Assembly: GCA_947463435.1 (NCBI GenBank)
Contig: CANHTS010000006.1
Coordinates: forward strand, 1 to 33,267
DNA from: Flavobacteriales bacterium
GTDB lineage: Bacteria; Bacteroidota; Bacteroidia; NS11-12g; UBA955
DNA length: 33,267 nucleotides
Direction of reading: 5' to 3'
A program made the position numbers and the translations under genes. Below, one piece after another: positions 10,173 through 31,875 of this stretch. The notes under the pieces are model-generated. The model worked only from the letters and a program-made list of their open reading frames with translations. It had not been told where the DNA came from and did not search any database. Every line of letters begins with the position of its first letter. Positions within the stretch are counted from its first letter, which is position 1.

Positions 10173-13100
10173 TTAGCGAATGAGCAGCACGACTCCGCTG
10201 TCGTTCACTTCTCGCCCTGACAACGTGTAATAGCGCAGTTTCCATGCATAGCTGCCGGCGGCTAAGGGTTTGCCATGGCGCAGTGCATTCCAGCCTTCCT
10301 GTGGCGAAGTGGAACTGAATATTTTTTCACCCCAGCGATTGAAAACCATGAACGAATATTCCTGCACATTGCGGTCGATCACAGGCATGAACAATTCATT
10401 GCTTTCCGGGCCTTTCCGGTCGGGAGTAAACGCATTAGGTACAAAGTGCTGTACCCTGGGCTCCACGCGAACCTGATCGCTGGCAATAGACGTACAACCC
10501 TTGTCGGTTGCAATCAACAGACGCACATCGTAGAGCCCTTCAAGCGGGAAGTTCACCTCCGGATCGCGTAGATCTGATTCCCAGGCCCGTGGGCCTGAGA
10601 AATACCACTTGCTTATGAAATTATCGGTTGAGACAGAAGTATTGAGAAAAGCTGCCGTCGCATAATCCAAGTCGAGAACCGTGCCCGGCATCACATCGAA
10701 CGAGGCTTCCGGACTGCGGTAAACCCGTATAGAATCAGCCAGCGCGAGGGTTGTTTTACAACCATTCTTTTCGACGGTGCAATACACCATCATAGAACGC
10801 GCGTCGGGAATAGCCTGGAAATAGGTTTTACCAACTCCGATGTAATTGATATCTCCCAGCTGCCAGCTCACCCGATCAGGTTCATCGGCCGTCAATTGCA
10901 ACTGAAGTCCGAAAGGCGCGCAACCGCTCATTTGGGCGGCGCTGACTGTGCCTGAAGGAGCAGGAACAACTTCTACCTGCAGCTGGGTATCTGTGGCAGG
11001 GCAGACTGCGTTGGATCGGGCAGTTATGCGCAATGGATAGTACCCGGGTTGTGGTGAAGAGAAGAACCTGAACTCAGGTGCATCGGTAGCTGAAAGTACA
11101 TCAGCCTCAAGGGAGGAAATTGCGAATGTTGCAGGCTGATTGGCCTGCACTTCAATATCCAGGTATTGCCCTGCACAAACTTTGTCGTTCCAGCCATTGA
11201 TGGATGTAATCAGTACAGGCGTATAAACTTCAATACGGTGTGAAATGGTTGCTGCGCAACCGGTCGATGGGTCGCGGTACTGACCGTACACAATCCTGGC
11301 GCCTTCCTTGGGTTGCAAGCTGAGCTGATTGGCTGCAACATCCAAGCCCGACCATTGGGCACCTGCCGGTTCCGACGCAAGTGTCAGACGAAGCGGTGCG
11401 GGCACGCAGACAGTTTCAGGCACCGAAGCAGCCACGCTGAAAACCGGTCTTGGCAAAACACGAAAAACATCGTCGTGCACTATTTCACAGCCCCCATAAG
11501 CCAGACGGAAAGTCAAAGGATAAGCACCGTTTGCATCGGAATGGATGTACAAGGTATCACCGGAAACATTCCCTGCCGAAGTACTCCATTTCCCACCGGG
11601 CAACAACAAACCGCTGGCTTTTCGCAAAGGCACGAAACGCGTTCCCTGACAAACCGGGTCGAGCAGTTTCAATCCGGTTGCCGGAAGTTCGGTTACACTA
11701 ACTGCGTTGGTATCTGTGCGCAAACAGCCGGAGCGATCGGTATAAAATGCCAGGCAACGGCTCTTGCCGGGTGTACCGTTGTGGTTCAGCCAGGTGGAAG
11801 GTGCAGACCCGCTCAAATAAGATACGCCTGCCAGCAGGCTGAAATAAACCTGCTCTGTGGGTTTACGCGTTAACAAAGGTTCCAATTCCAAAGCGGGCGA
11901 ACTGCTGCAAATCGAAGTATCGCGCAAGCCCATAGGCGAGGCCACAATAGATTTGCTAAAAGCTGAGGCTTTCAACGCACAACCCATTCCGTCGCTGAAC
12001 ATCAGGTCCGCCTGCAAAGTACCTTTCGCCGGCATCACAGCTAAAAAGCGCGTTCCGCCGGGTATACTATTCCACCAATAGGCGTAAGGTGTCCTGCCCT
12101 TGCTAACTTTGGCTTCAATCTGCCAACTGCTTCCAGGACAGAGCGAATCTGCGAACTGCAAAACCAGCGATGGCCGTTCAAACATGGGCACCTGGACTGT
12201 ATCTGAAATAATGGTCTTACAACCACTTAGTCCGTCTATCAACTCGAGACGAGCAACGATAACTCCGCCTTTATCCAGTCGCAAGAATTGATTGCGCCCG
12301 TTTCGCTGTGCTATCAAATCACTTTTCTCATTGAAGATAAACCAGTTGAATTGATGCTTGCTGTGTTCACTTGCAGGGGTCGCCTTCATCCGCAAGGTGC
12401 CGCAAGTATCCAGGAATACCTCAACTGTGGCATCCAACTTCCTGGCTACACGGAGGTTCCAGGTTTTCCATGTATAGAGGTTTAGCGGACACGCATTATC
12501 GGCTGCCCAGGTTTTCAAGACATAAGGCTTGGTGCGTACATCGGCCAGGCTGGGCTTCCAACAGAAACCGGCATCAGTAAACCCGGGCCGGCTACTGCCC
12601 GTGAATATTTTTGAGCCGGTGGCATCGGTTAACATGCCATAGCGAAGTGAGTCGCTGCGGGTGCCGAATGCCTTGTCGGTAAAATAAACATCGAAACAGG
12701 ATTCTTCACCTGCACATAGCCATTCAGGAATTCCCGAAGTGGTGATATCAGGCATATGATTCCCAACTGCAGTAACCAGAAACTGGACATCGCGCCGTGT
12801 AATACCTACGCGGGTCATTTTACCGGACAACATGCGCCATTCGATGATTTCAATTACGAGAAAACCTCTTTCACCGGAGCTGACGGGTGTGCATATCAGG
12901 CCTCCATTCAGGCTGTCAAACCAGATTCCTGAAGGAGGATTAGACGCCGGATTCGGATTGCAAAGCGGTGGCGAGGCGCAATAGGCTGTTATCGGTCGGC
13001 CGGAACTGAGACCACTTGGGTAAACAAGGCTGCGCTCGTAGCCCCTCAAGGCCGTTCCCAGCCGGTAAGAAAGCGAATCTCCATCGGCATCAACCGCCAT

Positions 13101-13682
13101 CATATTATAACGAAAGGCTTCGTTTTGTGCGAGCAGGAAAACCGGTGCCACGGTTTCGATGGTCGGACTGACGTTGCGTATGCTGTTGCAAAGGTTTAAG
13201 CGGGAATAATTGTAGTAGTATTCGGCCGTTCCCCAGGCATCCGACCGGGAATCAACCCGGATTGTTGCATCAAATTCACATTGTATCAGCAGCAAATTGC
13301 TGAAATCATAACTACCGGAAAAAGTCCAGGCTTCGATACCTGATGGGAAACCGGTACTGGTATCGCAGCGACTGAGTTGCCCTTTGCACAATGGCGTGAT
13401 ATCTCTCACCGAAGTGCGCGTCAGCGCCACGGAAGCAAGCCTTTGACCTGCGCGTAATGTGCCTAGCGAACCAACGATTTCAAGATCAGGTATATCGGAA
13501 CAATTGTTGGTATTGAAGGCGCATTCTGCGCAGTTCCTGTATACCACCACCTGGAAACTGTAACGGTTGCCCGATTCAAACTTATGGGTGATTTCACCTC
13601 CAAGCACATGCGAAGCGTACAATCCTGCACCGGCAATGAGCCAAAGCAGAAATAAAAACGCTATGCGCCGGATTGCGTGCAT
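10173..13682 (-). CDS. Large secreted protein with gliding-motility-associated / T9SS type-B sorting C-terminal domain
   Basis: Signal peptide MHAIRRIAFLFLLWLIAGAGLYASH; C-terminal HFVPNAFTPDRKGPESNELFMPV...FMVFNRWGEKIFSSTSPQEGWNALRHGKPLAAGSYAWKLRY; PKD-like segment before the CTD. Start placed at MHAIRR. Confidence 0.88.
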   Translation of the reverse strand: MHAIRRIAFLFLLWLIAGAGLYASHVLGGEITHKFESGNRYSFQVVVYRNCAECAFNTNNCSDIPDLEIVGSLGTLRAGQRLASVALTRTSVRDITPLCKGQLSRCDTSTGFPSGIEAWTFSGSYDFSNLLLIQCEFDATIRVDSRSDAWGTAEYYYNYSRLNLCNSIRNVSPTIETVAPVFLLAQNEAFRYNMMAVDADGDSLSYRLGTALRGYERSLVYPSGLSSGRPITAYCASPPLCNPNPASNPPSGIWFDSLNGGLICTPVSSGERGFLVIEIIEWRMLSGKMTRVGITRRDVQFLVTAVGNHMPDITTSGIPEWLCAGEESCFDVYFTDKAFGTRSDSLRYGMLTDATGSKIFTGSSRPGFTDAGFCWKPSLADVRTKPYVLKTWAADNACPLNLYTWKTWNLRVARKLDATVEVFLDTCGTLRMKATPASEHSKHQFNWFIFNEKSDLIAQRNGRNQFLRLDKGGVIVARLELIDGLSGCKTIISDTVQVPMFERPSLVLQFADSLCPGSSWQIEAKVSKGRTPYAYWWNSIPGGTRFLAVMPAKGTLQADLMFSDGMGCALKASAFSKSIVASPMGLRDTSICSSSPALELEPLLTRKPTEQVYFSLLAGVSYLSGSAPSTWLNHNGTPGKSRCLAFYTDRSGCLRTDTNAVSVTELPATGLKLLDPVCQGTRFVPLRKASGLLLPGGKWSTSAGNVSGDTLYIHSDANGAYPLTFRLAYGGCEIVHDDVFRVLPRPVFSVAASVPETVCVPAPLRLTLASEPAGAQWSGLDVAANQLSLQPKEGARIVYGQYRDPSTGCAATISHRIEVYTPVLITSINGWNDKVCAGQYLDIEVQANQPATFAISSLEADVLSATDAPEFRFFSSPQPGYYPLRITARSNAVCPATDTQLQVEVVPAPSGTVSAAQMSGCAPFGLQLQLTADEPDRVSWQLGDINYIGVGKTYFQAIPDARSMMVYCTVEKNGCKTTLALADSIRVYRSPEASFDVMPGTVLDLDYATAAFLNTSVSTDNFISKWYFSGPRAWESDLRDPEVNFPLEGLYDVRLLIATDKGCTSIASDQVRVEPRVQHFVPNAFTPDRKGPESNELFMPVIDRNVQEYSFMVFNRWGEKIFSSTSPQEGWNALRHGKPLAAGSYAWKLRYYTLSGREVNDSGVVLLIR

Positions 13683-13730
13683 GATACATACAAATATAAT
13701 CCTTGGGGCAAGTACTGCCAATCGATGTTC

Positions 13731-13771
13731 AAAAAACAAAACCGGCCGCTTCTTAATCGATGCGGCCGGTT
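13731..13771 (-). terminator. Rho-independent terminator (minus strand) after the 1493-aa gene
   Basis: AACCGGCCGC ... GCGGCCGGTT 10-bp stem; on the minus strand followed by TTGTTTTTTG. Confidence 0.8.
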
Positions 13772-13793: not shown

Positions 13794-16700
13794 TTAACGC
13801 AGCAGCGTTATAGTACCGGTGAATTTGTACAGCTTGCCTTCGAAGCTTGTCACTTCAACGAGATAAGCGTACACATCCTGCTGGCATTCCTGTCCGTTGG
13901 CACGTCCATTCCATCCTTGGTTAACATCAGTGCTTTCGAACATCTTCTCACCCCAGCGGTTGAAGACGTGCATCTTATATGCAGTGAAGTTCTCGATGTA
14001 CACCTTGAAGGTGTTGTTGCCATTCGGCCCTGCATCATCCGGCGTGAAGGCATTCGGGATGTACACGATGATATCCGGACCTATCTTCAGCATGCGGTAA
14101 GCGGTGTCGCGGCAGCCTTTGTCTGAAATGGCAATCAGTCGCACTTCATAGGTATTGGTGTCTTTGCCGTAAGAGAAGGCAGGGTCGCGTTGGGTGCTGG
14201 TATCCAGACCCGTTCCGGTTCCGAAATTCCAGTTGTAGCGCAGAATTGAACTGTCTGCTATCCGGCTCTGGTTGAAGAATTGGAATTTAGGCAGTGCGAT
14301 GGTGGTGTAGAAGTTCGGGTTAGATGTGAACATGGCGTTCGGCACCGGCCAAACATCGATATACGAAGGCTTTTTGAGCGTAGTCGCGCAGGGGCCGGGT
14401 GTGTTCGTGATGGTCAGCGTCACATCGTACTTGCCCCAGTTGGCGAATAGAATGTTCGAAGGGTTCGCCAGGGTTGAAGTGTCGCCGTTACCAAAATCCC
14501 AGAAGTAAGCGAGTTGCGAAGCAGGAATCACGTTATTCAGGGTATGGTTGAAGTTCACGAGCAGCGGCTCGCAACCCTGGAGTGTATCGCCTGCAAAGTC
14601 AAACTGTGGGTAAGGATGAATCAACACCACCATGCTGTCGTTTACTGCAGGGCAAACGTTGCCGGGAGGCAGCACATTGGCTACACGCAGCAGGGCACGC
14701 TCGGCTGTAATATCTGCAGGACCGGGTTGGTAGATGGTATTGGTATCCTGTGCACTGAAGCTGCCATCACCTGCTGAAGTCCAACGGACACCAGGCGACC
14801 ACCGCAGTGTGCTGTTGATATTCAGGGTCTGATCGTTACAGATATTGGAAGGGTCAGTTGTATTGATTGTGATGGAAGGCATGCTCTGTACGGTGATGTA
14901 CATGCTGTCTTTCATTTTGCAGGAGAACGGATCGGTGTAAGTGTAGATGAACTTATGCGGACCTTCAAAGGTTGCCAATCCATCACTGCCGGGTGTAAAG
15001 ACACCATTCTCTGCGCCGCTCAATCGCCTTCCTGTCCAATTGCCGGATCCGCCGATGGGGCTTACGAAAGTAGGCACCAAAGTAATCGGCGGATCGATGG
15101 AGCAGACGCGCATGTTGGCTGGCAGAGTGATTCTGGGCAATGGTTTTACGACCAGAGTTCCGCTATCCGCTGTCAGACAACCTGTTGCAGTGTGTTCGTA
15201 TTTGAATTCCCAATCTCCATTACCGGTTGCAGGAATGAAGTAACGGCCTTGTCGCACGGCAGTGGCAAGCCTTGAATCTGTGCGGTCACCGTCTTTCGCA
15301 ATAGCGATCCAACGACCATCCAGTGGCATTGGTTTGCCATTGAGCAGCACATATTCATTCAGGTCGATGGTATCATCATCCAGACAAACCTGTGGCAAGG
15401 GCTGAACTTCAGCTACCGGCTCAGGCACTACATCGATACGTGTAGTATCACGGGTAAAGCATCCGGTAATCGCATCCTGAATAAAGAAGGCCATTTGGTA
15501 TTCGCCGGAGTAGAAGTCTTCCGTCACATCGCCGAAGCAGAACTGGAAGTTGGCAGGCAGACCGGTTCCCTGATTCAGGTCGCGGATGATAGTGGTGCGA
15601 TCTACACCTGCAGGCACTTTAAATGCATTCCAGTTGTACAAGGCACCGGTTTTTACGCGGGGCAGAATGATAGAAGAATCCATCAGAGCACAACCTTTAT
15701 CCTGGCAATAGGTGCGGTCACGCAGGCGGACAATTGGATTGCCCTGGGTTACCAGCCAGAAACTGTCTTTGTTGAAACAACCGGTCTTTGGGTCTTTGAA
15801 TTCGCTGATGATTCGGTCGCGGCGGAAGTTACCACCTTGCAATGTTGCATTATCGATATTGGTCGTCTTGTACAGATAGGTATTGCCATTCAGGATTACC
15901 AATCCGGGGCTGGTGCGCGATTTAAACGTCACACCGGCGCCGTGGCGGGCATCGAGTCCGGTTTCCTGGCCCAGGTTGCGGTCGCCATAATCATAGCAGC
16001 GGGAAGGCAAGGAAGCGCTCATGTCGGGAAGTGGCACAACGTTGATGCAGAAAGTATCGCGGTCTTCACACCAATGTCCACCCTGGTTCACGCGGAGGTA
16101 CAGATCGTAACAGGTATTGGAGCGGGGATGCACCCGTATGTTACGGTTCGTTCCGAGCGGAATATTCTGCGTGATATTGGACCACGTAAAGTTTAGGGTT
16201 TGTGTTGTAGGACGACCACCTGCAGTAATGGTAATGGTATCCTTGTCGCAGAGGTCTATATCCGGTCCGGCCAAGGCCACCACGGTATCGTTTACGAACA
16301 ATTCCACTTCGTCGGTGCCAATACAACCCCAGTTCTTTTCCTGGACGGTCACCTTGTACTTGCCTTTGACATTGACACGGATGGTGCGCGTTGTATCGTT
16401 GGTTGGTTCCCAGAGATAACGCACGGAATCCATGTGTTCGGCATCGAAGACGGTATTCTCGTAGGTACAGATGCGCTGGTCAGGGCCGAGGTTCACGATG
16501 GGCAGCGGCTTCATGTATACCAAGATGGTGTCTTCGTCCACACAACCGTTCGCATCTCGGATGCGGAGTGCGATAGTCGAATCGCGGGTTACCGTTACCT
16601 CGAAGGTTACCCCGGTATCGCCGGATTTGTGGTTGTGAGGGGTAGCCCAATAGTAGCGGTAAGGAGACGGACCGTTCCGGATGTCCGGAGCGAAGGTAAT

Positions 16701-18275
16701 CTTGTCGCCATAGCAGGCAAAGGTATCAGGCCCAAATGCGAGTTCAGCCTTCAAAACCGGAGGAATTACTACCGTATCCATATAGATGGTCGGGCAGTTT
16801 TCCGGGTTGTTGATCATGTGGGTGATGATGAACTTCCCACCTTGCTTAAACTGAATGGTATCCAATTGTTTAAAGCTAATTGGGAATACGAGACGCGTAT
16901 TTGTGCTGTCGCGGATTTCCCAGCGATAAAGCGGGTTGCCTTTGAAGTTCGGCTCCGGTTCACTCTTGTAAGCAAACTTACCGCACTTCAATACGTCGTA
17001 TTTGCGTTTTGCAATGGCCCGCTTCTTCACCTTGATACGGAAACCGCGGATGGCAGTTGCAGGTCGCGGACAGTTATCATCCTGTGCGGTAACGGTGAAA
17101 GTATAGAATACGTCACTTGCCTGACCGATGCGGGTCTGCCAGCAGAACTCAGCCTTCTTTTCACGGTCTTTGGGGTTCTTGATTTCGAAGGTAGCACCTG
17201 GAATACCACGGTTCCAGCGCATCTGCACGGTATCGGGCCGCGTTTGGTGCGGCGTGAACTGTTTATCCGTCCCATCCATCGTGAAACATAACTTATCTCC
17301 TTCACAGACGGAATGGGAGTTGGAACCTTTGATTTCAGGCGGGTTGTTCGGACCGCAGTTCTTTACAATGAGCTGCATGTCCCTTCGGGTAATACCAATG
17401 AGTTCCCATTTCTTGGTTGCGCTGTCTCGCCGGTATTCGTCAATTTGTATCACTACAATACCTACTTCTGAGCAGTCTGTGGGAGTGAAGATGATATCAC
17501 CGGTCAGTCGATCAAGGAAGAAACCGCGGGGCGGATTCGCCGAAGGCACCGGGGTGCAGTTCTTTACGCCCGGCTGAGGGCAGAAAGGCGTCATGGGCAC
17601 GGTCGGCGAAAAGCCGGAACCGTAAGAAACGGGGTTGGTGAGCGACTGCATGCCAGACACCAGCGAGTAGGCCAGCGAATCGAAGTCGGCCGTGTCAATC
17701 GCACCGTTGTTGAAGTAAAAAGGCTGGTTGCAGCAGAGATACGCCACAGGCTCGTTACTCAACGTCGGGCTGCTATTGCACTTTCTGCCGATTTCGCAAA
17801 TATTGAGCATACAGCTGGTCATAAAGTCCTGGCTGGACTGACCGGTTGTAATCGCCCCGTTGCGGCAGCACTGCCCTACGTAGAAAGTAATCTCGCAGCA
17901 GTTATTGGCCTTGTAATTTGCCCAGGGATTCTGGGTGAGATCGATGGTAGCCTCATACGTGTGCTCTTCCACGCCCTCGCCCGAAGTAGTGTTCGTCGGG
18001 TTGCATGGGTTACTGGCAGAAGCACAAACCGGCGTAATGTCGCGGATCCGGGTACGGGTCATCGGCAGACTGGCGCTGCTGCAACCGTTCGCCATTGCAC
18101 CCGTGGTCGGGCTGTTGAAGGGAATACCGCGGCAATCGCGATACACCTTCGCAATGATTTTGTACTTGCCACCGCCCAGGCACTGATAACTCATGTCGGC
18201 ACCCATCATGTGGGTTGCCATAACATCGAGCGTTCCAAGCGCGATGGCAATAAATGCGAGTAGGTATCTCTTCAT
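13794..18275 (-). CDS. Giant PKD-domain secreted protein with T9SS type-B / gliding-motility C-terminal domain
   Basis: Signal peptide MKRYLLAFIAIALGTLDVMATH; PKD-like motifs (YFWDFGNGDTSTLANP, YNWNFGTGTGLDTSTQRDPAFSY); CTD IVYIPNAFTPDDAGPNGNNTFKVYIENFTAYKMHVFNRWGEKMFESTDVNQGWNG. Confidence 0.92.
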   Translation of the reverse strand: MKRYLLAFIAIALGTLDVMATHMMGADMSYQCLGGGKYKIIAKVYRDCRGIPFNSPTTGAMANGCSSASLPMTRTRIRDITPVCASASNPCNPTNTTSGEGVEEHTYEATIDLTQNPWANYKANNCCEITFYVGQCCRNGAITTGQSSQDFMTSCMLNICEIGRKCNSSPTLSNEPVAYLCCNQPFYFNNGAIDTADFDSLAYSLVSGMQSLTNPVSYGSGFSPTVPMTPFCPQPGVKNCTPVPSANPPRGFFLDRLTGDIIFTPTDCSEVGIVVIQIDEYRRDSATKKWELIGITRRDMQLIVKNCGPNNPPEIKGSNSHSVCEGDKLCFTMDGTDKQFTPHQTRPDTVQMRWNRGIPGATFEIKNPKDREKKAEFCWQTRIGQASDVFYTFTVTAQDDNCPRPATAIRGFRIKVKKRAIAKRKYDVLKCGKFAYKSEPEPNFKGNPLYRWEIRDSTNTRLVFPISFKQLDTIQFKQGGKFIITHMINNPENCPTIYMDTVVIPPVLKAELAFGPDTFACYGDKITFAPDIRNGPSPYRYYWATPHNHKSGDTGVTFEVTVTRDSTIALRIRDANGCVDEDTILVYMKPLPIVNLGPDQRICTYENTVFDAEHMDSVRYLWEPTNDTTRTIRVNVKGKYKVTVQEKNWGCIGTDEVELFVNDTVVALAGPDIDLCDKDTITITAGGRPTTQTLNFTWSNITQNIPLGTNRNIRVHPRSNTCYDLYLRVNQGGHWCEDRDTFCINVVPLPDMSASLPSRCYDYGDRNLGQETGLDARHGAGVTFKSRTSPGLVILNGNTYLYKTTNIDNATLQGGNFRRDRIISEFKDPKTGCFNKDSFWLVTQGNPIVRLRDRTYCQDKGCALMDSSIILPRVKTGALYNWNAFKVPAGVDRTTIIRDLNQGTGLPANFQFCFGDVTEDFYSGEYQMAFFIQDAITGCFTRDTTRIDVVPEPVAEVQPLPQVCLDDDTIDLNEYVLLNGKPMPLDGRWIAIAKDGDRTDSRLATAVRQGRYFIPATGNGDWEFKYEHTATGCLTADSGTLVVKPLPRITLPANMRVCSIDPPITLVPTFVSPIGGSGNWTGRRLSGAENGVFTPGSDGLATFEGPHKFIYTYTDPFSCKMKDSMYITVQSMPSITINTTDPSNICNDQTLNINSTLRWSPGVRWTSAGDGSFSAQDTNTIYQPGPADITAERALLRVANVLPPGNVCPAVNDSMVVLIHPYPQFDFAGDTLQGCEPLLVNFNHTLNNVIPASQLAYFWDFGNGDTSTLANPSNILFANWGKYDVTLTITNTPGPCATTLKKPSYIDVWPVPNAMFTSNPNFYTTIALPKFQFFNQSRIADSSILRYNWNFGTGTGLDTSTQRDPAFSYGKDTNTYEVRLIAISDKGCRDTAYRMLKIGPDIIVYIPNAFTPDDAGPNGNNTFKVYIENFTAYKMHVFNRWGEKMFESTDVNQGWNGRANGQECQQDVYAYLVEVTSFEGKLYKFTGTITLLR

Positions 18276-18291: not shown

Positions 18292-19821
18292 TTATTTCTC
18301 TGGTATTAAGGCCTTCCGGGTTATTTGCCTGCCGTAATTATCGCGAACCATAAATACGACAGGCCCGTTGCCGGGCAGACTTTTCAAATTAACTATTCCG
18401 GCACCCAAAAAACAAAACGAGGCAAGGCGGCGGGCGGTCATATCGTAAACGCTGACATTCAGGGGAGAATTGCCTGCGCCGTATATGACCATGTTGTCTT
18501 CAAAAAGCCGCATTCCTATTGGGTTGTCTGTAAGACCCACGAGCGGGTTGTTTTGTTGCCTGAGTGCAGCATTTTTTTGCTGAACCATTTTCGCACCCAA
18601 TGAAGCCGGGTCATTTCCTACATTGCGTATCACGCCCAGTGCCAGCTCCAGCAAGGCGCTGCCCCCTGCCGGAAGAGAAAATGTGTCTGCCGTGAGCAAC
18701 CCTGTGCGGTTACCCGGAAAATTTCCGGCGTCACCTTCATTCCATATTCCCATATTGGCCGGGTCGGTGCCGTTGCTGTACACATAGGAAGTAACAATGC
18801 TTCCATCCAACCCGGCACGGCCAAAGGCAAGATTTCGACCGGTTTTCCACCGTCCGCGTGCCAGGTAATGGTAATGGGCCATATTGGTTGGCTTTCCGCG
18901 CACTGCGTCGCCGGTATTTTCGAAATACATGCTCGAAAGCACCTGCCTGTTCAGCATGTAGAGGGCAACTGCCGGAATACTGCTGCCAAAAACCGCATCA
19001 GATGCAGTTCCGTTATAAGCGGCCAAACCACCGGCATGGACATCGGTCAGCAGGTAATCGTCGCTGGCATCTCCAAGGGAAAAATCTGCCGCCAGAGATA
19101 AAGCCACTCCATTCCAATTCTGCTGCGAGCGGTTGTGTACCACAAAACGGAAGTATGCCAGCAGTCCAAGCGAGGTGTCCGGCTGCGTTTCAGGTATCCA
19201 AACCATCGATTGCACCTCAGAACCCAAGGGTGCTGAAGAAGTCAATCTGTTTCCTGCCGCCACATCATTGCTGATTGTGTAAGCCAGTTCGCCTTCCGGC
19301 ACAAATGGGTAATCGCCGTGCAGCGGATCGTAAAAACCGTTGCGGTTCACATCTGCGTATGGTGCCAGTACGCCCGCAAAACCTTTGGAGCCATTTGCGG
19401 GCCAATTGCTGATGTTTTCTGAAGGCTGGTAACCGGGCTGTTTCCAGCTTGCTCTGTGCTGTTGTACTTCACCTTGACGGAGCGTATACACTTTGTTGAA
19501 TTGCAGGGTATCGGCTGCCGCTCCGCCGTTCTGCCGGGTCGGACCGGGACTGAAATCGGTTACCCCTGTGTATACATCACAAACCGCTCCCGATGCCTGG
19601 CTCGATGTGCTGCCCGTGGTAATCCAAAGGCCCATTTTTTGAATGACAGGTTTCCCCTGGTAAGTAACAGCAGGATGATTCACCGATTGCAGCAAGTGAT
19701 TGGCGCGCATATGCAAAGCCAGCCCTTGGCTACTGATCCGCGCCGTATCCTGGGCCCGGGTTACAATCGGGCTGCTGCAGGCAGCAAGAACTGCCAGAAT
19801 ATGTAAGTATCGGTTGCTCAC
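18292..19821 (-). CDS. Secreted protein with T9SS type-A-like C-terminal domain
   Basis: GTG start overlapping the upstream stop (GTGA). Signal peptide; APYADVNRNGFYDPLHGDYPFV...AYTISND family motif; C-terminal beta-sandwich PLNVSVYDMTARRLASFCFLGAGIVNLKSLPGNGPVVFMVRDNYGRQITRKALIP. Confidence 0.82.
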   Translation of the reverse strand: MSNRYLHILAVLAACSSPIVTRAQDTARISSQGLALHMRANHLLQSVNHPAVTYQGKPVIQKMGLWITTGSTSSQASGAVCDVYTGVTDFSPGPTRQNGGAAADTLQFNKVYTLRQGEVQQHRASWKQPGYQPSENISNWPANGSKGFAGVLAPYADVNRNGFYDPLHGDYPFVPEGELAYTISNDVAAGNRLTSSAPLGSEVQSMVWIPETQPDTSLGLLAYFRFVVHNRSQQNWNGVALSLAADFSLGDASDDYLLTDVHAGGLAAYNGTASDAVFGSSIPAVALYMLNRQVLSSMYFENTGDAVRGKPTNMAHYHYLARGRWKTGRNLAFGRAGLDGSIVTSYVYSNGTDPANMGIWNEGDAGNFPGNRTGLLTADTFSLPAGGSALLELALGVIRNVGNDPASLGAKMVQQKNAALRQQNNPLVGLTDNPIGMRLFEDNMVIYGAGNSPLNVSVYDMTARRLASFCFLGAGIVNLKSLPGNGPVVFMVRDNYGRQITRKALIPEK

Positions 19822-21212
19822 CTGCTGAGGTGGAACATCAAACCGGCTGAAAGACTGAGTTGCAGATTGCGCTGCCGGAGAGTACCTGATGCAAACTGTG
19901 TCAGGTTGTATCCGAGGCCAGGCTCCAGCATCATGGCGATGCGCGGTGCAAGGAACCTGCGCATACCGGCCGACAAACCTGCATGCAGTTGGAAGCGGTT
20001 GATATTGGCGCCCTCTGCCAGTGAAACCACACTGCCATCATTCATGCGCCGGCTGCCACCGCGGTAAACCAGATAAGAAGGTGTAATGCCCGCTTGCACA
20101 TACCAGATGCCATCCGGAACAGGGCTCCAGCGGAATGCCACCGGCAAACCAATCATGCGGTAGCGGTTGATATCGGCATAGATCTCCTGGCGGGTAACCT
20201 GCATTTCGGTTGTATCGTAACGCGTTTCGGTGCGGTCTGGCTGACCCGGCACGCGGATAATCACGTCGTAGGCGTCAATACGCTGATGCGTAGAAGTGTG
20301 TTCTTGGCTGAAATTGAAATGGTCAACCCACTCCTGATAACGGATACCACTTACCCACTGGAAACCGCGGTTTGCAGGGAATACTGCTCTGGCAGTAATG
20401 GCCGCAGCGCCTGCAAAGCGCTCTTGCTTGCGTAAAGCTGCACCGGCGGGACTTTGCTTCAGCACCCATCCCGGCTCTACCATCCACTCGGTCTGCAGAA
20501 AGTTCTGAGCAATGCGGGATGAACGTTGGAAATCCAATGGAGCAGTTGCCTGAGGCTTGCGGAACATCGGATGGAGACGGAGCGGTTGTTTCATCAATGC
20601 TGTCCAGGCTTCCAACTCTGCAGGGCCGCTTAACTGGCTTCCGGCATCTGCACCGCCAGCGACGGGCGTTTCACCTTTTGTATTGCTTCCTGCCATCAAG
20701 TCACCTTGGTGTGCAACAGCGGGATTGGCTAAACCTGTTTTGCGCAGGCCTGTTTTGCGACCTGATTGCATGTGCACACCTGTTTGAATGCCCGCAGCAC
20801 TCTCAGAGGACGATCCGGACAGGCCCGTTTTATGCGCAGCACCATCTTCTTTATCTCCGGCAGCACCAACGCTGACAGAACCTTGTGCGTCCCGCGCGAC
20901 TGAAGCCCCGGGGTACACCGCAGTTTTATCCGCGTTGCCTTCAGCATGATTGGCCAGGGCTGCAGCGTCCTGCGTTTCTGCGGTTTGGCTGCTCTTGTCT
21001 GCCTCGGGCACCAACATCGGGCTGTGTTGCAGGTACATGCCAATTCCGGCTGTGCCAATTAAGAGCGCAGCGGCCCAAATGCCTTTGCCTATCCAGGCAG
21101 CGCCGGCGCCGCCGGCCTTGCGACGTTCCATTACCCGACCAAAAGCACCGGCATCAACCGGCGATTCCTGGTCCAGCAAGCGCCGGCGAAAGTCTTTGTT
21201 TTCCATACCCAT
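19818..21212 (-). CDS. Putative dual-membrane protein: short cytoplasmic (anti-sigma-like) N-terminus, one TM helix, low-complexity linker, C-terminal outer-membrane beta-barrel
   Basis: MGMENKDFRRRLLDQESPVDAGAFGRVMERRK, then TM GIWAAALLIGTAGIGMYL, Ala/Gly/Ser/Thr-rich linker of more than 100 residues, then alternating beta-strand pattern ending in LQLSLSAGLMFHLSR. Starts at TGATG junction with the sigma gene. Confidence 0.75.
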   Translation of the reverse strand: MGMENKDFRRRLLDQESPVDAGAFGRVMERRKAGGAGAAWIGKGIWAAALLIGTAGIGMYLQHSPMLVPEADKSSQTAETQDAAALANHAEGNADKTAVYPGASVARDAQGSVSVGAAGDKEDGAAHKTGLSGSSSESAAGIQTGVHMQSGRKTGLRKTGLANPAVAHQGDLMAGSNTKGETPVAGGADAGSQLSGPAELEAWTALMKQPLRLHPMFRKPQATAPLDFQRSSRIAQNFLQTEWMVEPGWVLKQSPAGAALRKQERFAGAAAITARAVFPANRGFQWVSGIRYQEWVDHFNFSQEHTSTHQRIDAYDVIIRVPGQPDRTETRYDTTEMQVTRQEIYADINRYRMIGLPVAFRWSPVPDGIWYVQAGITPSYLVYRGGSRRMNDGSVVSLAEGANINRFQLHAGLSAGMRRFLAPRIAMMLEPGLGYNLTQFASGTLRQRNLQLSLSAGLMFHLSR

Positions 21213-21739
21213 CAATGCAATTCCTTTTGCAGTATGATCATTTTTTGAAGCGCACGGCGGGCTTTCGCCAACTGCGTGCGCGAGGTTACTTCTTCAATGC
21301 CGAGCATACCGGCGATTTCATGGTGGGAATAGCCTTCCACCGCATACAGGTTGAACACCATGCGATAGCCTTCCGGCAACCTGACGATCAATTCCAGCAA
21401 TTCGATGGTTTCCAAACGGTTCAAGGCATCGTCACCAATTTCGGTGTCGTGCAGTTCCGGTTCCAGCGTCTCTGTCTGACGGCGGGAGCGGATTTTATTC
21501 AGGGAGGTATTGACCGCTATCCGGCGAATCCAGCCTTCCAGCGAACCCTGATGGCTAAAGCTGCGTATGTGGTCAAATACTTTCACAAAGGTTTCCATTA
21601 AAGCATCCTCGGCATCTTCCTGATTCTGGCAATAGCGCATACACACCGCCTTCATGCGCGGTGCGAAACGACGAAAAAGCAACTCCTGAACCTGGCGCTC
21701 TTCCCTCAGACATCCGTCCACTAGCTCCTTGTCTGTCAT
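21212..21739 (-). CDS. RNA polymerase ECF-type sigma-70 factor
   Basis: Sigma2 (LFRRFAPRMKAVCMRYCQNQEDAEDALMETFVKVFDHIRSFSHQGSLEGWIRRIAVNTSLNKIR) and sigma4 (LPEGYRMVFNLYAVEGYSHHEIAGMLGIEEVTSRTQLAKARRALQKMI). Confidence 0.95.
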   Translation of the reverse strand: MTDKELVDGCLREERQVQELLFRRFAPRMKAVCMRYCQNQEDAEDALMETFVKVFDHIRSFSHQGSLEGWIRRIAVNTSLNKIRSRRQTETLEPELHDTEIGDDALNRLETIELLELIVRLPEGYRMVFNLYAVEGYSHHEIAGMLGIEEVTSRTQLAKARRALQKMIILQKELH

Positions 21740-21905
21740 CCATCCATGCCATTCACTGTGCTTGTATCGAAGACACAGGTGAGGGCATTTCGTTGCCCCG
21801 AAGTTTGTGTTTTTTGGGGAATTCTGCGCAAAACAAGTCTATCCGATTGATTACAAACGATTTAAAAAGAAGGAAAGAAAAGTTATAGCGCTGTAATTTC
21901 GCAAG

Positions 21906-26842: not shown

Positions 26843-27682
26843 TTAAAGCACGTTCACCTTCACCCGAAGATAGCACTTCAGCAGCAAGGTCATTTTTTGC
26901 GAATCGGGTACGCGAATACGCTCTTCCATGATATGCTGTGCCGTAGCCCGCTCGATTTTCTCGAGCAGCTTCAGGTAATAGCGATAGGCCGTATAAACAC
27001 CGAAGCGGCAACCCATTGGTAGCTGCTTGATACCCTGGTAAGCCAGATCAAAATCCTTACGGATATCGCTGATGATGGACAGCTTGGTCTGGTCGTTGAA
27101 ACCCTGGAAGCTGATACCTGGGAAATAGACGCGTCCGCGGTCTGCGTAATCGCTTTTCAGATCCCGGATGAAGTTCACTTTCTGGAAAGCAGACCCCAAA
27201 GCCCGCGCTGCCGGCAGCAGGTGCTGGTAACGTTCCTCATTGCCATAACAGAAAACACGCAGGCACATGAGTCCAACTACTTCGGCCGACCCGTAGATGT
27301 ATTCGGAATAACTCTGATTGGAATGCGTGGTGCTTTCCAGATCCTCTTCCATGCTGTTGAAGAAGGGCTCGATCAGCTCGCGGCCGATATTGTAAGTGCG
27401 GCAGGCTATCTGAAAGGAATGCAATACCGGATTGGTGCTGATACCTTCTTCGATGGCGCGGTAAGTTTGTTCTTTGAATTCGGCGAGCAGACGGGCTTTG
27501 TCGTGGCCATGGAAGGTGTCGACAATCTCGTCTGCCACGCGCACAAAGCCATAAATAGCATACACAGCCCAGCGGTAATCGCTCGAAAGCATGCGAATGC
27601 CCAGCGAAAATGAGGTGCTGTAGTTGAGGGTAATGCGCCGGCTGGAAGCCAGGGCTGTGCGGTCATACAGTTGCATGCTCAT
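26843..27682 (-). CDS. crtB: Phytoene synthase (squalene/phytoene synthase family)
   Basis: YSTSFSLGIRMLSSDYRWAVYAIYGFVRVADEIVDTF, NFIRDLKSDYADRGRVYFP. Confidence 0.94.
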   Translation of the reverse strand: MSMQLYDRTALASSRRITLNYSTSFSLGIRMLSSDYRWAVYAIYGFVRVADEIVDTFHGHDKARLLAEFKEQTYRAIEEGISTNPVLHSFQIACRTYNIGRELIEPFFNSMEEDLESTTHSNQSYSEYIYGSAEVVGLMCLRVFCYGNEERYQHLLPAARALGSAFQKVNFIRDLKSDYADRGRVYFPGISFQGFNDQTKLSIISDIRKDFDLAYQGIKQLPMGCRFGVYTAYRYYLKLLEKIERATAQHIMEERIRVPDSQKMTLLLKCYLRVKVNVL

Positions 27683-29141
27683 GGCGTATCCTTTCTGTTA
27701 CAAGCCTGGAACCTATGACTACGATCGGCAGTCCGGTACCGGGATGAGTACTGGCGCCAACATAATACAAATTATTGAATTTCTCATCTTTATTCGCAGG
27801 ACGCAAGGCACCGATTTGATTCATTCCATGAGCCAGGCCGAGTCCGCTTCCTTTATAAAGATTGAACATCCCTTTCCAATCTATGGGTGTATAAACCGTT
27901 CGGGTGATGATGTTGTTTGCGATATCGTATCCAACACGCTCCCCAAGATCCTGAATGATGTCGTTAGCCAATTTTTCAGCGTCTGACCAATCAGGCTTGT
28001 AGCGCAGGTCGGGAACCGGGCACAGAATGAACAAGTTCTCGCAACCTTCCGGAGCACAACCCGGATTGCTTTTACTGGCTACATTCACGTAGTAATAAGG
28101 CTTTTCCGGTGCCACAGACGTTTTGAAAATCATGTCTGCATATGCCTTGAAGTTATTCCCAAGGAAATAGTTGTGGTGCGCGATACCGGGAATCTGACCT
28201 TTCACACCCAGGTAAATGGTGAAAGGCGCCAGCGTCCAATGCATCTTATCGAGCTTTACCTCGCTGTATTTCGAACGGTTCAGGATGGCTCCGCGGAACC
28301 AGGCCGCATCGGCATTGCACACGTATACATCGGCTGTCCAAAGTTTGCCATTGGCATCGGTGAAGCCTTTGAGCTGGTCGCCGTCTGCCTTATAGCCTGT
28401 GATTTCGGTGTGGTAATGAAACTTCACCCCACGCGATTCGAGGATAGGCAGGATACCTTCCACAATCTTGTACATTCCTCCTTCCACATTCCAATAGCCG
28501 TCGTGCTGCAGCTCCGTGTAATTCAGCAGGCTATAGACCGATGGCGTATCGAAGGGAGTGGCGCCGAGGAAGAAGGAAACAAGCGAGAAGATTACCTTCA
28601 CGTCTTCCGTTTCAAAATTCCGCTCCAGTTCCGTCCACATGCTGCGGAACATCTTGGGCAGGTGCTTCATCGGCACGGTGGCCAAGGATGCGAGGTACGG
28701 AACCATGCCATTGAAGTTCCGCTTGATGATGCGGTATTCGGTATCGTGGAAGATGGATGCGGCCGACTTCAGGTATCGCTTTGCCTTTTCTTCAAAGTTC
28801 TTTTCATCCGCAAATTCCTGCGCGAGCCTGCTGAGGTCTTTGTAAATATGGAAAACCTTGTCGCGGCCGGCCATATTAACGGTGTAAAGGGGATCGAGTT
28901 CGCGGATGGTGAAGGGAATGGGAATTCCCTGCGATTCGAATAGCTCTTTGAATTCATAACTCATGCTGAAGAAGGAAGGACCGACGTCGAACGTAAAACC
29001 ATCCTTTTCCAACAAGTTGAGGCGACCGCCTGCGCGGTGGTGTTTTTCGAGTATTTCCACCTGATAACCCTCGTGTGAAAGGCGCAGTGCGGTGGCGAGA
29101 CTGCCGAGGCCGGAGCCAATAATGAGTACTTTTTTAGGCAT
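27663..29141 (-). CDS. crtI: Phytoene desaturase (CrtI family)
   Basis: MPKKVLIIGSGLGSLATALRLSHEGYQVEILEKHHRAGGRLNLLEKDGFTFDVGPSFF; C-terminal YYVGASTHPGTGLPIVVIGSRLVTERI. Confidence 0.94.
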   Translation of the reverse strand: MPKKVLIIGSGLGSLATALRLSHEGYQVEILEKHHRAGGRLNLLEKDGFTFDVGPSFFSMSYEFKELFESQGIPIPFTIRELDPLYTVNMAGRDKVFHIYKDLSRLAQEFADEKNFEEKAKRYLKSAASIFHDTEYRIIKRNFNGMVPYLASLATVPMKHLPKMFRSMWTELERNFETEDVKVIFSLVSFFLGATPFDTPSVYSLLNYTELQHDGYWNVEGGMYKIVEGILPILESRGVKFHYHTEITGYKADGDQLKGFTDANGKLWTADVYVCNADAAWFRGAILNRSKYSEVKLDKMHWTLAPFTIYLGVKGQIPGIAHHNYFLGNNFKAYADMIFKTSVAPEKPYYYVNVASKSNPGCAPEGCENLFILCPVPDLRYKPDWSDAEKLANDIIQDLGERVGYDIANNIITRTVYTPIDWKGMFNLYKGSGLGLAHGMNQIGALRPANKDEKFNNLYYVGASTHPGTGLPIVVIGSRLVTERIRHEHATV

Positions 29142-29592
29142 TGTGATTGGGACGGAAGCGGTTCAGGAATTTGCGGGTAACATACAGGAAGCCAAACGCT
29201 TCCGAACCGTCTTTCCCGTGAAAGGTGTGATGATGGTAATGGGTCATGCGCATGGCATGGAAATAAGGAATACGGGTGATTTTCAGCCATTTGACGCGCT
29301 GGTGCACAAATACATCGTGAACCAGGAAATAGGCCACGCCGTACAAGGCAATACCGAGGCCGGCAAAAAAGCGCCAATCGAAATCAACCGATCCGACAAC
29401 AATCAACCAAACCGAAGGAATGGCAAACATGAAGCCGAATAGGTCGTTCAATTCGAAAGCTCCTTTGCGTGGTTCGTGGTGGCTTTTGTGCCAGACCCAG
29501 AGAAACCCATGCATGATAAACTTGTGTGTGAACCAGGCCACACCTTCCATTAACACGAAGAAGCCGAGCGTGATAAGAATATTGACGATCAT
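29134..29592 (-). CDS. crtZ: Beta-carotene (carotenoid ring) hydroxylase, fatty-acid hydroxylase superfamily
   Basis: Histidine motifs FTHKFIMH, HKSHHEPRKGAFELNDLF, HDVFVHQR, HAMRMTHYHHHTFHGKDGSEAFGFLYV. Confidence 0.92.
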   Translation of the reverse strand: MIVNILITLGFFVLMEGVAWFTHKFIMHGFLWVWHKSHHEPRKGAFELNDLFGFMFAIPSVWLIVVGSVDFDWRFFAGLGIALYGVAYFLVHDVFVHQRVKWLKITRIPYFHAMRMTHYHHHTFHGKDGSEAFGFLYVTRKFLNRFRPNHNA

Positions 29593-29667
29593 TTTCAAGA
29601 CCGGAAAGATAACGCCGGGGCAGTGCGAAAGTTTGCCCGGCATATTAATTCAGAAGCTTTCTATGCT

Positions 29668-30315
29668 TTAGCCCTGCGCGCGCACCCAGAAATACAGCAC
29701 GGCAAAAAATACGGCCTGCAGGAACAACAACCTGCCAGCCATGGGATTGGGTGAAATTTTCACGGTCTTCAGGTAGGCGTAATGGATCAGGAGCGAGGCG
29801 ATAAACCAGGCGACATAATTCTGCAAAGGGATCACATTGCCTTTCCACGACCAGAAATCAAAACGCATGGCCACCGGTTCGAGGAGGAAGTCGAAGCCGG
29901 TCATCATCGCTGCAGCCACCACACTGACGATTGCGGGGTCTTTGAACCAGCCGGATGCCACACTGCGTGTGAAATAGACGAGCATGAACCAGTTGGCGCC
30001 AAGAATCAGCGGAACTTCGAGGACACTGTAACCGAGGGTCTTGCCGTATTTGTACGACCCGAAAATGAGGCCGCTGTGCACGCCGGCCACTTCGAGCAAC
30101 CATCCGCAAAGGGCAATCATCAGGCCTGCGAAAACGAACGGCGCGTCCCATTTCTTGTGGAAGATGAGGGCAAGGAAGATGGCGAAGAGGATGTTGACGG
30201 GCGTAAGGCCCACGACCATTTGCTGCAACTCGGGCACCAGGAAACCGGTCAGGCCTACCGCGTAGATGATGATGGCAATCCAGGTAGCGGGAATCAGGTT
30301 CTTCGAAGCAGCCAC
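29668..30315 (-). CDS. Carotenoid biosynthesis protein, DUF422 / CruF-like (carotenoid 1',2'-hydratase candidate)
   Basis: Polytopic; GVHSGLIFGSYKYGKTLGYSVLEVPLILGANWFMLVYFT and DFLLEPVAMRFDFWSWKGNVIPLQNYVAWF are the recalled DUF422 motifs; sits inside the crt operon. Confidence 0.85.
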   Translation of the reverse strand: MAASKNLIPATWIAIIIYAVGLTGFLVPELQQMVVGLTPVNILFAIFLALIFHKKWDAPFVFAGLMIALCGWLLEVAGVHSGLIFGSYKYGKTLGYSVLEVPLILGANWFMLVYFTRSVASGWFKDPAIVSVVAAAMMTGFDFLLEPVAMRFDFWSWKGNVIPLQNYVAWFIASLLIHYAYLKTVKISPNPMAGRLLFLQAVFFAVLYFWVRAQG

Positions 30316-30321
30316 AGGCGA

Positions 30322-31815
30322 TCAGGGTTGGTATTTCTTTTGGATAAGCGATGCGGTGATGCGGGCACCCAGCAGACAGAGTGGGATACCGCCGCCCGGA
30401 TGCACACTTCCACCGGCAAAGTAAAGCCCCTTCACCTTCGAACTGAAATTTGCCTGCCGGAAAAATGCCGCCAGCATGCGGTTGGAACTGCTTCCGTACA
30501 AAGCACCGCGGTACGAGCCCGTGCGCGCTTCTATCCTTACCGGATCGAGAAATTCTTCTTCGGCTATCCATGCAGCGATATCGGTTCCCAGTTCCCGGCT
30601 CATACGGCGGATTACTGTTTCGCGCAGCTGACGCCGGATAGCATCCCAGTCTTGCCCGCGGTTGGCAGGCACATTCACCATAACGAACCAGTTTTCCATC
30701 CCCTCAGGAGCATCGGCCGGATCGCATTTGGAAGTAATATTAATATAGATGGTTGGGTCTTCGGGTGCTTGCTGTTCGTTCCAGATATCGCGAAACTCCT
30801 GTTCATAATCGCTGCTGAAGAAGATATTATGTACGCCCAGTTGCGAAAACGACTTCCGGATACCCCAGTAAAAAATCAACGCCGAACTGGAGCTATCTAC
30901 CTGCTCTACGCGTGCCGGGGCTTTCAGATCCGGGAGCATCTTCTTATAGGTCGGGAAAACATCGGCATTGCTGAGCACGATATCTGTCGGAACTTCTTCC
31001 CCTCCTTCCAGCAACAAGCCACGCACTTTCTTTTTACCAGCATCGAGCAGGATGCGTTCCACTTTGGCATTGAAGCGGAATCGCACACCCAGGCGCAGGG
31101 CAAGCTCATAAACAGCCATCGGAATACACCGCATTCCACCTTCCGGATACCAGGCGCCCATGGCAGATTCGAGATGCGGGATGACATTCAAGGTTGCCGG
31201 AGCCCGGTAGGGATCAGAACCGTTGTACGTGGCGAACCGATTATAGAACTGCCGGGCGTGGGCTGTGGCAAAACGGCCGATGTTCTCCTTGTTCATGCTG
31301 CGCATGGTTCCGATGAAAGGCAGGTTAGCGATGCCGCGCAAGCCACTCGGACGAATATAGGTAAGGAGTGTATGCAGGGAACTTTCGAGAAACACCGGTG
31401 CAGTAATGCGGTAGAGATAGGATCCGCGATTTTGCATGGCCAGGATATTGGCGGCAGGCTCGCCGAGTTCCTTTTCCATAGTAGCGGCGAGTGCGGCAGG
31501 CTCCGCCGGTGCATGGAAGCATTTGCCATCGGCGTAAAAATAATGGCAGACCGGATCGAGGCGTTGGTAGGAGAAATGATCCCGCGGATTTTCACCCGCC
31601 AACTCGAAAAGTTCGTCAATAAGGTCGGGCCTTGTGAACAATGAAGGGCCGGTATCGAAGCGAAAAGGGCCAAGCTGCATTGCTCCCAATTTGCCACCGG
31701 CGGTCGGGGCAGCCTCGAAAACCAGCACATCAAAACCGGCTATTCGCAGCCTGACAGCAGCCGCTAAACCAGCTATCCCGCCTCCTATGATCCCTATCCG
31801 TCGCCTTTGGTGCAT
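30322..31815 (-). CDS. CrtD-like carotenoid desaturase (CrtI/phytoene desaturase superfamily)
   Basis: GIIGGGIAGLAAAVRLRIAGFDVLVFEAAPTAGGKLGAMQLGPFRFDTGPSLFTRP; C-terminal GLYFAGGSVHPGGGIPLCLLGARITASLI; second CrtI-type enzyme beside cruF-like gene. Confidence 0.87.
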   Translation of the reverse strand: MHQRRRIGIIGGGIAGLAAAVRLRIAGFDVLVFEAAPTAGGKLGAMQLGPFRFDTGPSLFTRPDLIDELFELAGENPRDHFSYQRLDPVCHYFYADGKCFHAPAEPAALAATMEKELGEPAANILAMQNRGSYLYRITAPVFLESSLHTLLTYIRPSGLRGIANLPFIGTMRSMNKENIGRFATAHARQFYNRFATYNGSDPYRAPATLNVIPHLESAMGAWYPEGGMRCIPMAVYELALRLGVRFRFNAKVERILLDAGKKKVRGLLLEGGEEVPTDIVLSNADVFPTYKKMLPDLKAPARVEQVDSSSSALIFYWGIRKSFSQLGVHNIFFSSDYEQEFRDIWNEQQAPEDPTIYINITSKCDPADAPEGMENWFVMVNVPANRGQDWDAIRRQLRETVIRRMSRELGTDIAAWIAEEEFLDPVRIEARTGSYRGALYGSSSNRMLAAFFRQANFSSKVKGLYFAGGSVHPGGGIPLCLLGARITASLIQKKYQP

Positions 31816-31875
31816 TCGACAAAGAAACACCATTGCGGCGCTTCGGTTTTGGGAACGGTTTCGCTTGTGACTGTC

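Follow-up and report, generated by a model that had tools for sequence, protein, structure and literature searches.

The window, i.e. the whole stretch of 33,267 nucleotides of a Flavobacteriales contig (CANHTS010000006.1) analysed here, carries on its minus strand a row of genes headed by an ECF sigma factor of 175 aa (21212..21739). Its domains are recognised by Pfam (Sigma70_r2, E=1.3e-15; Sigma70_r4_2, E=2.8e-14) and our tree places it in a Das/ECF21-like clade, its ECF21 membership being read by clade and not by the published HMM. The next gene (19818..21212, minus strand) encodes a Dma-type anti-sigma of 464 aa, for which neither Pfam nor NCBIfam gives a match. Its ATG at 21212 overlaps the sigma stop, so that the TGATG junction reported in the initial annotation holds; the length of 465 aa given there had to be corrected to 464, since the 465-aa open reading frame begins at an upstream TTG. 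A third gene (18292..19821, minus strand), whose GTG start overlaps the Dma stop by 4 nt, encodes a secreted protein of 509 aa. Then come a fourth gene (13794..18275, minus strand) for a putative giant surface adhesin of 1493 aa (ATHMMGADMSYQC..., with PKD and CHU_C/T9SS type B domains in Pfam and NCBIfam) and, at 10173..13739 on the same strand, the gene of a second giant protein of 1188 aa (SHVLGGEITHKF...), whose T9SS type B domain is weak: TIGR04131 is matched with E=9.1e-7 and 28.9 bits, below the 35-bit cut-off of NCBIfam. The size of the 1493-aa protein, its PKD repeats and its T9SS signal suggest the label “adhesin”. The translocon SprA is encoded in the genome, which indicates that the T9SS is present. 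Elsewhere in the window (26843-31833, minus strand) a simple look at the sequence points to a carotenoid biosynthesis-like cluster, with a phytoene synthase-like and two desaturase-like proteins.

The anti-sigma had been proposed to consist of four parts—a charged N-terminus, a transmembrane helix, a low-complexity stretch and a barrel—and the AF2 model (single chain, built with 19 homologues), the Foldseek search and the statistics over 77 homologues all back this topology. Residues 1-35 (21108..21212, minus strand) form the predicted cytosolic anti-sigma segment, with helices at 6-14 and 23-33; it is supported by AF2, by an N-terminal HMM and by the identity between orthologues. The transmembrane helix follows at residues 36-62 (21027..21107), in agreement with hydropathy and with the positive-inside distribution of charges: the 77 homologues, whose transmembrane window begins at residues 37-53, have on average 5.1 K/R in the 12 residues before the helix versus 1.05 after. 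Residues 63-238 (20499..21026) make up a predicted disordered periplasmic tether, with a pLDDT below 50 over residues 63-196 and two short helices at 197-208 and 225-237; its length is kept among the 77 homologues (180 +/- 21 residues, range 139-263) and its sequence is not. Because of this disordered tether the mean pLDDT of the whole model is 63. The C-terminal part (residues 239-464, 19821..20498) is a predicted 8-stranded outer-membrane barrel supported by AF2, Foldseek and the family alignment: its strands span residues 239 to 462 with a pLDDT mostly between 80 and 95, and a very long hairpin (284-319 / 327-355) bears a conserved PGxP...YDT motif. In the PDB the Foldseek matches are outer-membrane barrels (Ail with a TMt of 0.63, OmpA, NspA, OmpX), those best covered having eight strands like Ail; the C-terminus is thus a barrel, as the initial annotation had it. 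AXA-type cleavage sites are as rare in a secreted control family (4/40) as in the anti-sigmas (5/77), and their count does not separate a signal peptide from an anchor. Over the 77 homologues the N-terminus and the barrel are better kept and the tether least, and orthologues of the same genus are 36-43% identical in the N-terminal segment versus 12-13% in the tether. This conservation, together with the tether length and the charge pattern, is as expected if the N-terminus is cytosolic, the tether periplasmic and the barrel in the outer membrane.

The N-terminus is best read, from the model, as a two-helix anti-sigma segment of a size comparable to that of the class II anti-sigma CnrY, of which two short helices suffice to bind both sigma domains (PMC7406223). 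CnrY belongs to a metal-response system of Cupriavidus and is likened to the N-terminus by size and helices, not by sequence. As two helices are enough in class II anti-sigmas, such an N-terminus is not aberrant. A ZAS/class I anti-sigma domain was considered and rejected: the HxxxCxxC motif occurs in 0/77 anti-sigma homologues, which agrees with the non-ZAS character noted earlier, and two short helices stand against the four-helix fold of the ASD. An anti-sigma of the FecR type was also rejected, the window protein having no FecR Pfam match; and no FecR or TonB-dependent transducer partner gene was seen in the conserved downstream neighbourhood of the family loci. The qualification “unusually short” has to be abandoned, while the comparison with Dma and the topology, which came with it, stand. 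A 37-position HMM of the N-termini of the order ranks sigma-linked anti-sigmas first among 906 open reading frames not used in its building, and it matches Dma1 of Bacteroides faecis (E about 0.003), which reaches its transmembrane helix at about residue 47; this length is normal for Dma. Dma2 of B. faecis is absent among the matches listed for these 906 open reading frames, and is related to the order's N-termini by pattern only.

Dma1 was reportedly first described in Bacteroides thetaiotaomicron, in a PNAS paper of 2024; to our knowledge, Dma systems have been characterised in this one gut species, with indirect outputs. The family is defined by four parts—N-terminal segment, transmembrane helix, tether and barrel—and by an adjoining ECF21 sigma; Dma1 adjoins a NigD gene, and Dma2 genes for DUF4943, DUF4858 and nitronate monooxygenase (PMC13088901). 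Our comparison genome was that of B. faecis, which holds orthologues of the B. thetaiotaomicron Dma loci. Its four top-scoring matches to the sigma family of the window reach 120-152 bits, the next 84, and these four sigmas are exactly those joined to transmembrane-tether-barrel proteins, as two pairs and two fusions. One pair adjoins a NigD gene and the other genes for DUF4943, DUF4858 and nitronate monooxygenase, and because these neighbours agree with the published loci we assigned the pairs to Dma1 and Dma2 respectively. In a tree of 73 ECF sigmas, those of the order, the B. faecis Dma1, Dma2 and Dma3-like sigmas and the fusions form one clade (99/99), set apart from the other ECFs sampled; a very long-branched sigma of the window's own genome (own_L055) also falls there, its placement being unsure. 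Natural fusions of sigma, transmembrane helix, tether and barrel, 551-567 aa long, are found in B. faecis (L209, L213) and in Hoylesella oralis (L207); in these, the sigma passes into the transmembrane helix with no separate anti-sigma helices in between.

The likeness to Dma proposed by the initial annotation is borne out by three lines: the AF2/Foldseek architecture, the sigma clade and the HMM match of the N-terminus to B. faecis Dma1. By this computed architecture and homology, the window pair is a Dma-type system outside Bacteroidales. As in Dma1/Das1 and Dma2/Das2 of B. thetaiotaomicron, an ECF sigma adjoins a protein made of an N-terminal sigma-binding segment (putative in the window), a transmembrane helix, a tether and a barrel (PMC13088901), and the operon is small and includes genes without an assigned function. 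These downstream genes differ: those of the window operon encode a T9SS type A protein followed by a giant T9SS type B adhesin, where Bacteroides has NigD or DUF4943/DUF4858. Dma3 of B. thetaiotaomicron also shares with the window the sigma clade, the transmembrane helix, the tether and the barrel, but its sigma lies within the same polypeptide whereas that of the window is separate.

The family profile matches 95 of the 108 genomes of the order, and an ECF sigma lies directly upstream in 77/77 of the homologues with an available upstream region—mostly with a 4-nt overlap. The linkage and family statistics refer to these 77 loci. The Dma-type design is thus near-universal in an environmental bacterial order. 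The conservation extends further downstream. In 40 loci, from two families, the next gene encodes the secreted protein of about 500 aa, which has a T9SS type A sorting domain in 32 cases out of 38, the window copy being below detection. AF2 gives for the third protein a confident model (pLDDT 86) with a super-beta-sandwich-like fold and a T9SS type A-like C-terminus; in Foldseek the model is similar to the beta-sandwich portions of GH94/GH116-type enzymes, with a TMq of only about 0.3, so that a glycan-related role is a guess. The giant PKD/CHU_C protein, with its characteristic SHMMGADITYKC-type N-terminus, is the fourth gene in 37/39 testable loci, and several genera without the third gene have an adhesin relative about 2 kb downstream. 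The conserved unit is therefore larger than the sigma/anti-sigma pair: it is an operon of sigma, Dma, a T9SS type A protein of about 500 aa and, at its end, a giant T9SS type B adhesin, and this four-gene operon is apparently autoregulated.

A promoter motif was searched upstream of the sigma genes of the order de novo, with no prior assumption, its significance being drawn from mononucleotide shuffles. The motif found is GCMACGwww-N12/13-TGTCTw. The form GCCACG...TGTCTA has a constant position, about -70 upstream of the sigma gene, and is present in 33/76 loci, where the best shuffled dyad reached at most 11; among the 43 remaining loci, 14 score with p<0.01, the window included. The window site, GCAACGAAATGCCCTCACCTGTGTCTT (21770..21796, minus strand), has a score of 15.4 and a shuffle p of 0.0009. 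The pattern GCAACGWWWN{10,12}TGTCTW has a single match in the 2.64-Mb genome of the window, upstream of the sigma, and in 105 genomes the strict motif has 24 matches, 22 of them at this operon and one per genome; a reversed control pattern gave 6 scattered matches in the same genomes. Computation thus supports this motif as the predicted promoter of the window sigma, nearly unique to the operon among the 105 genomes. A looser pattern revealed, in one genus, three sites outside the operon; each lies 22-28 nt ahead of a giant protein of the adhesin family, and two of the three are orthologous. Since the reversed pattern also gave 6 matches in that search, we take this link between motif and adhesins as supportive, not conclusive. 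The motif is distinct from what precedes the related sigmas: it was found upstream neither of the Bacteroides sigmas nor of those of the sister branch described below.

Our favoured reading, which we hold as quite probable, is that the window pair forms a Dma-type cell-surface signalling switch, in which a bridging anti-sigma releases a sigma that transcribes its own adhesin operon. At rest, the sigma would be kept at the inner membrane by the two N-terminal helices of a polypeptide that would also span the periplasm as a disordered tether and be anchored in the outer membrane by the barrel with its long, presumably extracellular hairpin. A change at the barrel—a ligand, a cargo, or failed assembly of the barrel itself—would be relayed by a pull on the tether or by proteolysis. 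The freed sigma would then transcribe, from GCMACGwww-N12/13-TGTCTw, its own gene and those of the anti-sigma, the T9SS protein of about 500 aa and the giant T9SS adhesin. In this scheme we infer the sigma binding, the dual-membrane topology, the signal and the mechanism of release, the topology across both membranes being that predicted for a single chain. The conserved PGxP...YDT hairpin suggests that the barrel might read something outside, and the makeup of the operon suggests that adhesin presentation is the output and possibly also an input. The logic is likely that of a feedback loop coupling adhesin production and the condition of the cell surface.

Other explanations have to be weighed against this switch. 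The second gene could encode an ordinary outer-membrane barrel, exported by means of a cleaved signal peptide and being a target of the sigma, not its regulator. The C-terminus is indeed a genuine barrel by AF2 and Foldseek, and barrels can be encoded in sigma-linked operons. Yet in the 77 homologues the hydrophobic core begins at residue 37-57, as opposed to 1-9 in the control, the secreted third protein; the N-terminus belongs to the better conserved regions and is homologous to those of other sigma-linked anti-sigmas, and a long tether follows which a cleaved outer-membrane protein would not need; we consider this possibility very improbable. It is also unlikely, if slightly less so, that the adhesin and the 500-aa protein are mere downstream neighbours with a promoter of their own, the output of the sigma being limited to the head of the operon. 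Such an arrangement would fit the several genera in which the sigma-Dma pair has no third gene after it or the adhesin is encoded at another place, but the gene order is otherwise retained in two families, with frequent start-stop overlaps, and motif sites are found ahead of displaced adhesins.

A less easily dismissed explanation, to which we grant a real though minor chance, retains a true anti-sigma and changes its signal: failed assembly of the barrel would expose the tether to site-1/site-2 proteases, making the protein a sensor of OMP-assembly stress instead of a sensor of ligand or cargo. A disordered tether is a plausible protease substrate, and the RseA-type proteolytic cascades, which are established, offer a precedent. 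Besides, the loss of Dma1 or Dma2 alters the production of outer-membrane vesicles (PMC13088901). On the other hand, the strong conservation of the long hairpin and of its motif speaks rather for reading at the surface, and what the sigma is predicted to switch on is an adhesin operon instead of chaperones.

The switch also compares with other known systems. In the FecI/FecR/FecA type (PMC9249621), an anti-sigma of the inner membrane likewise lets an outer-membrane event govern an ECF sigma; that system takes three proteins, among them a TonB-dependent transducer, whereas the window has one polypeptide with no FecR/TonB-type domain match. New in this analysis are the conserved four-gene operon, the promoter motif that precedes it, and a sister branch in which a T9SS signal stands where the barrel would be. 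As the operon is compact and conserved, its promoter sharply defined and its candidate output a giant surface adhesin, the signal, the output and the mechanism of such a system become testable.

The sister branch lies inside the same Dma sigma clade. In the window's own genome, contig C51 (L260:3554-10037) carries a paralogous ECF sigma, an anti-sigma and then a CHU_C adhesin of 1589 aa. This anti-sigma (L260:4104-5195) has the same N-terminal motif and a transmembrane helix, the barrel being replaced by PKD and CHU_C, i.e. a T9SS type B signal. The arrangement was read at 13 loci, this one included (orthologues L262-L270, L272, L273, L283), and no description of an anti-sigma with a T9SS signal was found in the literature searched, whose coverage is incomplete. 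We propose tentatively that the sigma clade has two ties to the outer membrane within one polypeptide, a barrel or PKD plus a T9SS type B signal, that the latter might be an inner-membrane-anchored T9SS substrate reporting on secretion, and that both might be dedicated feedback controllers of adhesin export, since both types lie directly upstream of giant T9SS adhesins. If true, the anti-sigma with a T9SS signal would give the cell a new means of gauging its own protein secretion. A partial parallel is PorA of Porphyromonas gingivalis, a T9SS C-terminal-domain protein which feeds PorXY-SigP, a pathway whose ECF sigma controls T9SS functions (PMC7712824): a T9SS cargo also signals there to an ECF sigma pathway, but by a two-component system, where the window would use a membrane-bridging anti-sigma.

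Other variants were met. In the second family of the order (L288, L290), an ECF sigma is immediately followed by an anti-sigma variant of about 410 aa that shares the N-terminal motif and ends in a CHU_C-like part; next comes a large secreted protein. Contig C54 of the window's own genome (L259:6864-11208) holds a second pair, whose anti-sigma is Dma-like; after it come a T9SS type A protein of 859 aa and a PKD-rich protein. Finally, the sigmas of the sister branch (L261-L273) share an upstream pattern, GCAACC...TTCTA, which resembles the window motif but differs from it.
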